Shown: piece after piece, positions 33,789 through 36,370 of the stretch | Layout: the number at the start of each line of letters is the position of its first letter | Position numbering within the stretch: position 1 is the stretch's first letter | Assembly (NCBI RefSeq): GCF_014297575.1 | Contig: NZ_CP060412.1 | Location: 3,534,001 to 3,598,000, forward strand | Reading direction: 5' to 3' | Length of the DNA: 64,000 bases | Source: Dyella telluris | GTDB taxonomy: Bacteria; Pseudomonadota; Gammaproteobacteria; Xanthomonadales; Rhodanobacteraceae | Made by a program: the position numbers and the translations under genes | The notes under the pieces: model-generated | The model's database searches: none | What the model saw: only the letters and a program-made list of their open reading frames with translations | Told to the model about the DNA's origin: nothing

Positions 33789-34799
33789 ATGCCGCTCAAT
33801 GCCGCGCAATGGCAGAAGTCGCTGACGGCCGACGGCCTGCAGCCGGTCTACCTGCTGGCCGGCGAAGAGCTGCTGGTGCTGGAGGCCGCCGACGCCCTGC
33901 GTGCCCAGGCGCGAAGGCTCGGCTACGCCGAGCGCGAAGTGCTGGATGTCGGCAACCATTTCGACTGGGACGACCTGGCGCGTTCGGCCGCCGGCATGTC
34001 GCTGTTTGCCACGCGTCGCCTGCTTGACCTGCGCCTGCCCACCGGCCGCCCCGGCACCGAGGGCGCCAAGGCCATCAACGAATTCTGCGCTAACCCGCCG
34101 CCGGACGTGACTCTGCTGATCACCGCGACCGAGTGGAGCAACAAGCACGAAGGCGCCTGGACCAAGAATCTCGATGCCGCCGGTGCGCTGGTGGTGTTCA
34201 GCGCACCGCGTCCGAACGAATGGGCTTCGTGGATTGGCACCCGCCTCGCATCGCGTGGCCTGTCAGCAACACCGGATGCGGCAGCCCTGCTGGCCGAGCG
34301 CGTGGAAGGCAATCTGCTGGCGGCTGCGCAGGAGATCGACAAGCTCGTGGTGCTCCATGGCCAGGGCAAGATCGACGCGCAAGAGATGGAAAATCTCGTG
34401 GCGGACAGTGCCCGCTACGACGCATTCAAGCTCACCGACGCCGCGTTCGCGGGTGACGGTGGGCGTGCCTTGCGCATCCTTGCCGGGCTGCATGCCGAAG
34501 GCGAGGAACTGATCGGCCTGATGGGCTGGCTGGTGAACCAGTTGCAGCTGGCACTGCGTCTTGCCAATGCCCGTGACTTTGCCGCGCAGGCACGTGCGGA
34601 GCGACTGTGGCCCGCGCGCGAGCAGTTGTTCCGCAAAGCGCTGCGCCGGGCGCCGCGCGAGCACTGGCTGCAATGCCTGGCGCGTGCCGCGCGTATCGAT
34701 CGCATGGCGAAGGGGCGCGAGCAGGGCGATGCGTGGCTGGAAGCCGAGCGCCTGATCGCGGCCATTGCCGAACCACGGGCGGCCGGCGCGCTGGCATGA
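33789..34799 (+). CDS. holA: DNA polymerase III delta subunit
   Basis: 336 residues, the usual length. It begins AAQWQKSLTADGLQPVYLLA with GEELLVLEAADALR, the standard N-terminus of HolA, an AAA+-like clamp-loader subunit that opens the beta clamp. The stop overlaps the nadD start (ATGA). Located between lptE and nadD as in most gammaproteobacteria. Confidence 0.95.
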   Translation: MPLNAAQWQKSLTADGLQPVYLLAGEELLVLEAADALRAQARRLGYAEREVLDVGNHFDWDDLARSAAGMSLFATRRLLDLRLPTGRPGTEGAKAINEFCANPPPDVTLLITATEWSNKHEGAWTKNLDAAGALVVFSAPRPNEWASWIGTRLASRGLSATPDAAALLAERVEGNLLAAAQEIDKLVVLHGQGKIDAQEMENLVADSARYDAFKLTDAAFAGDGGRALRILAGLHAEGEELIGLMGWLVNQLQLALRLANARDFAAQARAERLWPAREQLFRKALRRAPREHWLQCLARAARIDRMAKGREQGDAWLEAERLIAAIAEPRAAGALA

Positions 34800-35437
34800 A
34801 GCCGCTGGCGCTTTTCGGCGGCACCTTCGACCCGGTGCATCTGGGGCATCTCAGCGTGGCCTGGGAGGCCTCTGAACTGCTCGACGCCGAAGTACGCCTG
34901 ATGCCTGCCAACGTGCCGCCGCACCGCAACGCGCCGGCCGCGTCGCCCGCGCAGCGCGTGGCCATGCTCACGGCCGCTTTGCAGGGACAGGATCGCCTGA
35001 CCCTGGATACGCGCGAGCTGCGCCGCGAAGGGCCGTCTTACACCATCGACACTTTGCGCGAATTGCGCGCCGAGCTGGGCGAACGCCCGCTGGTGCTGCT
35101 GCTTGGCGCGGATGCCTTCGCGGGCCTGCCGAGCTGGCAGAGCTGGCGCGAACTGTTCGAGCACGCGCATATCGGCGTGCTCAGCCGGCCGGGTATCGAT
35201 GCGGCATGGTCGGTGGATCTGGCGCTGGAGATTCTGCCGCGTCGCGTGACCGATGCAGCGTTGCTGCACGAGCTGCCGGCCGGAAAGATGATCGAGTTGG
35301 CGGTGACGCCACTGGAAATTTCCGCCACCCGCATCCGCGAACTGTTGGCAGAAGGGCGCGATCCGCGTTATCTGCTGCCGTGCGGTTTGTTCGACGACCC
35401 GGCTGTGCTCGACCCCTACCGCAACGCAACTTTGTAG
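34796..35437 (+). CDS. nadD: Nicotinate-nucleotide adenylyltransferase
   Basis: 213 residues. N-terminal nucleotidyltransferase motif GGTFDPVHLGH (8-18) and the C-terminal ISATRIRELL motif (ISxTxxR) identify NadD, which converts nicotinate mononucleotide to deamido-NAD. The start overlaps the holA stop by 4 bp. The last 42 codons are present a second time immediately downstream as a diverged, non-translated copy, and the TAG stop is part of a REP arm (TGTAGGAGCG). rsfS normally follows directly; here it is 7.2 kb away. Confidence 0.96.
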   Translation: MKPLALFGGTFDPVHLGHLSVAWEASELLDAEVRLMPANVPPHRNAPAASPAQRVAMLTAALQGQDRLTLDTRELRREGPSYTIDTLRELRAELGERPLVLLLGADAFAGLPSWQSWRELFEHAHIGVLSRPGIDAAWSVDLALEILPRRVTDAALLHELPAGKMIELAVTPLEISATRIRELLAEGRDPRYLLPCGLFDDPAVLDPYRNATL

Positions 35438-35513
35438 GAGCGCACCCTGTGCGCGACCGCAGCGTCATGTGGTGGACGCGTTGGTTGGTCGCGCACAGGG
35501 TGCGCTCCTACAG
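35433..35513. repeat. BIME copy A at the nadD stop codon (81 bp)
   Basis: Inverted REP pair with arms TGTAGGAGCGCACCCTGTGC, spacer with ATGTGGTGGACGCG. Its first arm supplies the nadD stop codon. It differs from copy B at 35646-35726 at one base by eye. Confidence 0.9.
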
Positions 35514-35524
35514 CTGCTGCCTTG

Positions 35525-35650
35525 CTGGAAATCTCCGCCACGCGTATCCGCGAACTGCTGGCGGAGGGGCGTGATCCGCGTTACCTGCTGCCCTGCGGAT
35601 TGTTCGACGCCCCGGCTGTGCTCGACCCCTACCGCAACGCAACCTTGTAG
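35525..35650 (+). pseudogene. Duplicated 3' end of nadD (42 codons, no start)
   Basis: 126 bp collinear with the last 42 codons of nadD (35312-35437), including the stop. I count 12 base differences; 11 are synonymous and one changes Asp to Ala. No start codon or ribosome site allows translation in this frame. The strongly synonymous pattern means this copy evolved as a functional nadD end until recently, so it comes from another nadD allele rather than decaying in place. Confidence 0.9.
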
Positions 35651-35726
35651 GAGCGCACCCTGTGCGCGACCGCAGCGTCATGTGGCGGACGCGTTGGTTG
35701 GTCGCGCACAGGGTGCGCTCCTACAG
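35646..35726. repeat. BIME copy B after the nadD tail duplicate (81 bp)
   Basis: Same element as copy A, again beginning inside the stop codon of a nadD end. Together with the tail copies it makes two direct repeats with a 213-bp period (35312-35524 and 35525-about 35736). Confidence 0.9.
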
Positions 35727-35752
35727 CTGCTGCCTTCTGCCGTGACACACCA

Positions 35753-36370
35753 CTACGACGTACGCGGCACAAACCTCAGCGCCACCGAATTCATGCAATA
35801 GCGTAATCCCGTCGGTGCCGGACCATCGTCGAACACGTGGCCCAGGTGGCTATCGCAACCGGCGCAGCTTACGGCGATACGGTCCATGCCGAACGTACTG
35901 TCGTTCTTCTCGATGACGTTCTGCTTCGCGATGGGTTGCCAGAAGCTTGGCCAGCCCGTGCCCGAGTCGAACTGCGTCGCCGCATCGAACAATGCCGTAT
36001 CGCAGGCGGGACATCGGTAAAGGCCAGGGCCGGTCTTTTCATGTCGCCCGCTGAAGGCACGTTCGGTGCCGGCGCGACGCATCACGTAGTAGGCGTCGTC
36101 GCTGAGGCGTTCGTGCCACTGGGCATCGTTGAGCACGAGCTTGCGCGCATGGCAGGGGCCGAGCTTGTGTCCGTCATCGGCGAAGCACATGAGCAACACG
36201 TCGCCACCGGTGGCCATCGGCGTGGCGGCCATGGCTTCGCCGCCCAGCCCGCGGCGCCGGAAAAACGTCGGTAGTGCAAAGCCTCCAATGGCAGCCATCG
36301 CTCCTCCTGTCAGCGCTGCCCGCAGAAAGCGGCGCCTTTCCAGCTTGACGATGTCCTGTGTGCGGGACAT
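35753..36370 (-). CDS. msrB: Tat-exported methionine-R-sulfoxide reductase MsrB
   Basis: 205 residues. Twin-arginine leader ERRRFLRAAL (11-20) directs the enzyme to the periplasm. The MsrB domain has zinc cysteines C120/C123 and C169/C172, the GTGWPSFW substrate motif (137-144), and catalytic C192 in RYCMNS. It reduces the R form of methionine sulfoxide in proteins. GGAGG lies just upstream of the ATG. It follows dipZ by 29 bp on the same strand; DipZ can deliver electrons to the periplasm, so the pair looks like a functional repair unit. Confidence 0.94.
   Translation of the reverse strand: MSRTQDIVKLERRRFLRAALTGGAMAAIGGFALPTFFRRRGLGGEAMAATPMATGGDVLLMCFADDGHKLGPCHARKLVLNDAQWHERLSDDAYYVMRRAGTERAFSGRHEKTGPGLYRCPACDTALFDAATQFDSGTGWPSFWQPIAKQNVIEKNDSTFGMDRIAVSCAGCDSHLGHVFDDGPAPTGLRYCMNSVALRFVPRTS

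Follow-up and report, generated by a model that had tools for sequence, protein, structure and literature searches.

The gene at the centre of this analysis, which we take from its context and from recall to be nadD, occupies positions 34796..35437 on the forward strand of the window, the whole 64,000-nt stretch of Dyella telluris DNA analysed here, and encodes a 213 aa protein that matches Pfam PF01467 (1.7e-24) and aligns with its homologues in relatives. A repeat search of the window finds two 212-nt copies at its 3' end, 94% identical and spaced 213 bp apart (35312-35523 and 35525-35736), in agreement with the initial annotation, which had described a tandem 213-bp repeat of the last 42 nadD codons together with a REP pair between 35312 and 35738. 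Each unit comprises these 42 codons, stop included, a REPIN, and about a dozen further bases. In unit 1, the end of nadD itself (tail 1) consists of 25 codons at 35312..35386 (+) and 17 more, including the stop, at 35387..35437 (+), followed by the first REPIN at 35433..35512, with two inverted 26-bp GTAG-type REP arms and a loop, and by the short downstream flank and unit junction at 35513..35524, delimited by aligning the copies. Unit 2 contains a second tail with a diverged first part of 25 codons at 35525..35599 (+), recognized from both alignment and tree, and a last part of 17 codons at 35600..35650 (+), and then the second REPIN at 35646..35725. This downstream tail is free, in that it is attached to neither nadD nor any other gene, and beyond it lies msrB (SelR domain; PF01641, 1.7e-44), convergent with nadD at 35753..36370 (-). 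When the 427-bp stretch is searched against its own genome, the best 40 of 252 candidates include only REPIN matches elsewhere, and in a nadD search of 20 genus genomes a second tail appears, among the matches listed, in this genome alone, the sole exception being a 33-bp chance-like match in genome G018.

The REP pair in each copy has two perfect 26-bp arms that are 28 nt apart, and folded as DNA the two hairpins each reach -42.5 kcal/mol (z -11.2 for copy 1 and -10.4 for copy 2). A strict REP pattern matches the genome 118 times in the forward and 117 times in the reverse orientation, with no matches to a reversed-pattern control, and a single PF01797 match (E 7e-8) identifies a RAYT-type Y1 transposase gene that has a REPIN downstream and a partial REP or REP remnant at its start (L159:1272-1872, around G000:C1:1757001-1757249). 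The long hairpin, the many copies and the REP-flanked RAYT gene are those of a REPIN, or GTAG-type REP doublet, and the 213-bp period is that of a tandemly repeated REPIN cluster. For P. fluorescens SBW25, PMC3116915 describes 16 ordered clusters of REPINs, which as a rule are tandem repeats with the flanking sequence included. The Dyella array resembles these as characterized there in its head-to-tail units of 5' flank, REPIN and short 3' flank, and in the presence of a REP-flanked RAYT-type gene in the genome; it departs from them in that the 5' flank is the 3' end of a coding sequence, partly diverged between units to the degree seen between species.

Tail 1 (35312-35437) and tail 2 (35525-35650) differ at 12 of 126 sites, 11 of which are synonymous, and outside the coding tail the units differ at one base (35473), within the REPIN; both counts match those first made. 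The one non-synonymous difference, at 35397, converts GAC to GCC and D to A, with tail 2 carrying a C at the equivalent position 35610 in place of the A found in tail 1 and in all 23 relatives compared. What the initial annotation missed is that the differences are patchy: 10 of the 13, all synonymous, fall in the first 75 of the 212 columns, and 3 in the other 137 bp. Such clustering has a hypergeometric p of 0.002 for the 75-column division, and a best-split permutation of the 13 differences gives p 0.015 with the split at index 86, about 35398. Because of this distribution, the break between diverged and near-identical sequence probably lies inside the coding tail, near 35387-35397, the interval favoured from the positions of the differences being 35386..35397 (35599-35610 in copy 2), although a few real species pairs show a nearly equal contrast and leave this placement uncertain. 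With just two differences in the final 51 coding bases, which end in VLDPYRNATL in both tails, a break placed at the edge of the REP is less probable, and the recombination through the REP proposed earlier is accordingly not favoured.

We compared the tails with those of 24 relatives, 19 within the genus and five from other genera; the pattern-based comparison was made without locus L014, whose genome (G016) is represented in the nadD alignment through L144. In their first 75 bp the tails show 10 differences, a number inside the between-species ranges of 6-24 for the 300 pairs formed by the relatives and the window and of 6-18 for the 171 pairs within the genus. The following 36 bp contain a single difference between them, against six between tail 1 and the nearest species. 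None of the 300 pairs combines at least 10 differences in the 75-bp part with one or fewer in the next 36 bp, and only six have two or fewer in the 36-bp part; the closest contrasts are those of G005 and G002 (9 and 1) and of G017 and G014 (10 and 2). The ending shared by the tails is present in none of the 24 relatives, and neither is the D of the VLDPYR that both tails carry. The 10/75 then 1/36 contrast and this shared residue make it most likely that the tails represent two different alleles in their 5' parts, and that their 3' parts were recently copied from a single sequence. Among Dyella species generally, the NadD C-terminal residues that follow PYR vary freely.

The initial annotation had proposed that two nadD alleles meet at this site. 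This is probably correct, in that the best tree for the 75-bp part separates the tails, pairing G019 with tail 2 (89/87) and G017 with tail 1 (86/80); it falls short of proof, in that the AU test does not reject a tree in which they are constrained to group together (p-AU 0.225, with 75 bp too short for decisive AU tests), and the proposal passes the sisterhood check weakly. Over this part tail 1 is matched best by G017 (92%) and tail 2 by G019 and G001 (91%), and the identities to G019 are 66/75 and 68/75, respectively, so that either tail is compatible with a native allele. The individual sites lean towards tail 2 as native: at 35332, 35353 and 35359, tail 2 and G019 have uncommon states in common where tail 1 carries the common ones, with 35345 as a site at which tail 1 shares an uncommon state with G019, and G019 is the nearest species in five of six neighbouring genes and tied in msrB. 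Against this, the nadD body continuous with tail 1 has a native look too: taken in full it is closest to G019 (86.6%, the next being 84.3%), and M165 is common, among the aligned rows, only to this genome and G019, which would put the left edge of any import from outside this pair at 35290-35320; that this would fall so close to the left edge of the repeat itself is a coincidence that counts against an import. In 75-bp windows of the nadD body, the nearest species varies among G019, G003, G005, G011, G010, G008, G002 and G015, with G003, G005 or G011 nearer than G019 in several, and neither these windows nor sliding identity over 29-40 kb reveals a clear single break in the body. No donor of the patch was found among the 19 genus genomes and five genomes of other genera in the alignment.

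A free copy of a gene end is expected to collect mostly non-synonymous changes. In simulated substitutions in tail 2, the chance that a change is synonymous is 0.35, and the chance that all changes in a free copy are synonymous is 1.5e-5 for ten changes, 0.004 for five and 0.04 for three. To place nadD among comparable loci, we use 25 REPIN loci (seven in this genome and 18 in relatives), picked for close REP hits among the matches listed rather than at random; an ORF 3' end is repeated in eight of these, the window, L120, L121, L167, L189, L192, L193 and L199, where the ORFs other than nadD are putative and taken by length and GC3. The survey was made without L122, the gapped tails of L193 were uncounted, and the overlapping second ORF rows of L193 and L199 were dropped. 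Tandem arrays of a REPIN plus its flank thus recur in Dyella, where such duplication is ordinary, another point that had been overlooked. Synonymous to non-synonymous ratios are 3:13 in L189, 1:4 in L192, 1:3 in L199 and 1:2 in L121, summing to 6:22, against 11:1 for nadD (Fisher 5e-5, a test that omitted L167 and L120, both of which lean in the direction of nadD). With L167 and the 3:1 copy of L120 added, the contrast has a p of 0.0019. Neutral decay of one copy, which should scatter differences over all codon positions, is rejected as unlikely from the all-synonymous first 75 bp and the contrast with the other four arrays, as had been anticipated when the repeat was described.

Not every array decays neutrally, however, as L167 (5:0) and the three free copies of L120 (1:0, 1:0 and 3:1) demonstrate. 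L167:66-1322 (G007:C11), in another species, has a 279-bp tandem unit containing the last 32 codons of an ORF and a REPIN, its five differences all being synonymous. Comparison of its tails with 17 of 18 other-species loci (L179 was left out) places tail 1 nearer in ten, tail 2 nearer in four, and the two tied in three, with a margin never above 3/96 sites and thus no direction. L120:1005-1802 (G000:C1, about 1.932 Mb) has three further free copies of the last 31 codons of an ORF with REPINs at 235 bp spacing, and one synonymous site in it alternates G, C, G, C across the four copies. L189 (G000:C1, about 569 kb) is a three-REPIN array whose decayed ORF tail provides a useful neutral control.

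We favour, at a probability of about 60%, a local REPIN-associated duplication of which one copy also received a short foreign piece of nadD by homologous import. The duplication of the nadD 3' end and of the REPIN at its stop codon is directly visible and probably arose when replication or repair slipped at the 26-bp hairpin; this genome and the genus offer parallels in the duplications at several further REPINs. Homologous DNA from the nadD of another Dyella lineage would then have replaced a tract that spans at least the 67 bp enclosing the ten clustered differences and that probably ends, on the right, at about 35387-35397. The patch would look synonymous because both alleles had been working nadD ends until they met, and since the duplication the pair would have gained about three changes in 137 bp, including the non-synonymous one in the free copy. 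In the simplest version, tail 1 would be the imported stretch and tail 2 the old native end. The opposite polarity leads to an unlikely but serious competitor, in which a single event yields both repeat and mosaic: incoming or displaced foreign nadD DNA would have made the first 75 bp of tail 2 foreign and left tail 1 native, through an illegitimate join just after the REPIN hairpin (35524/35525) and a homologous join within the tail (copy 2, about 35599-35610). It correctly predicts that the differences should start near the left edge of the repeat, and they do so 8 bp from it; it also accords with the continuity of tail 1 with a gene body nearest overall to G019, and with the grouping of tail 2 with G019 as a possible donor type. 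Homology-facilitated illegitimate recombination is, moreover, a known process in the account that PMC3240628 provides of it. Two template copies, such as sister chromosomes, would be needed for this to duplicate rather than delete, though, and L121, L189, L192 and L199 show duplication but no trace of a foreign patch. We retain it because the evidence on which tail is foreign points both ways. Dispensing with a donor altogether, an old duplication could have had its 3' half and REPIN kept alike by gene conversion, perhaps aided by the RAYT transposase nicking REPs, with the first 75 bp diverging in situ. Patchiness and the unrejected sisterhood of the tails would both suit this, but non-synonymous changes would then be expected in the free copy, like those seen in L189, L192 and L199, and the 10:0 of the first 75 bp has a P of 0.004 even if only half of the changes arose in tail 2, which makes this quite unlikely.

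Two more readings are weaker again. Integrating elements that restore the 3' end of a gene leave behind a duplicated gene end with synonymous divergence, and the nadD tails would be the expected trace of an element that integrated, restored the gene and was later lost; the initial annotation had remarked on this likeness while seeing no integrase. The likeness extends to the duplicated end and its synonymous differences, and stops there: nothing lies between the two copies, the nearest of seven tyrosine integrase matches in the genome is about 258 kb away (PF00589 family only), and the nadD tail was not found in viral contigs, searched with an exact degenerate pattern, or in phages or plasmids, searched by blastn with tail 2. 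The REPIN is also duplicated along with the tail, and the recurrence of this architecture at unrelated ORFs beside REPINs further weakens the comparison, such that we set the integrating element aside as most improbable. An assembly error that joined two alleles is suggested by a repeat that is short and in part near-identical, and is very unlikely in a host genome of 4.99 Mb that is a single contig, 100% complete with 0.88% contamination, when arrays of like kind occur in other assemblies.

The repeat had also been thought to mark the exact site at which the linkage of nadD and rsfS is lost, and this we can reject, as the separation is genus-wide. In 19 of 20 genus genomes, including this one (7.3 kb), rsfS and nadD share a contig and are 5.0-9.6 kb apart, and in G003 rsfS is on a different contig; msrB and dsbD are matched in the 14-20-kb nadD neighbourhoods of all 19 relatives, with no repeated nadD tail in these among the matches listed. 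Since the lost adjacency includes relatives with no listed repeated tail, it is not tied to the repeat.

As an array, then, this is a kind already known, the tandem REPIN cluster, and the unusual part is the recombination scar. Among 108 transfer events of less than 100 bp reported in the relevant portion of PMC13344027 for B. subtilis transformation are the closest counterparts to the proposed import: like the natural-transformation mosaics presented there, it would be a sub-100-bp donor patch bounded by short identical stretches, and unlike them it is deduced from one genome, inside a tandem repeat. In the literature searched, which was not exhaustive, we found no description of a duplicated gene tail next to a REPIN whose differences are synonymous only. 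Because the free tail would be a snapshot of the allele at the time of duplication, a later exchange of the live gene could become visible in one genome without strain data, and, should this hold widely, duplications could be dated and very short recombination tracts detected with the help of such arrays. Failing that, the case is a curiosity of local interest, and NadD is not expected to be affected, as the protein is identical from either tail bar one residue. A broader and doubtful idea is that REPIN arrays at gene ends constitute a reservoir of interchangeable coding tails, under intermittent selection and drifting mainly synonymously, in which contraction of an array could switch the tail of a gene because each unit has an intact tail, stop codon and hairpin. 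The ratios at nadD, L167 and L120 are hints of this, and the ordinary decay of L189, L192, L199 and L121 speaks against it.

The stop codons of the two tails connect the coding sequence directly with the REPIN, as the TAG of each falls within the REP terminus (TTG TAG GAGCG). GTAG REPs in general supply the TAG stop of neighbouring ORFs, as set out in the corresponding part of PMC3733652, and the nadD stop conforms to this in being provided by the REP terminus TGTAGGAG; it differs from the cases given there in that the stop-supplying REP is duplicated along with the tail of the gene. At 9 of 18 genus loci, as read by eye, a REP-like doublet follows nadD within 220 bp or less, in degenerate form at two of the nine, which makes the gap between nadD and msrB a frequent REPIN site. 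A REP terminus supplies the nadD stop in G009 as well as in this genome, and in G019 REP-like sequence begins at the stop.
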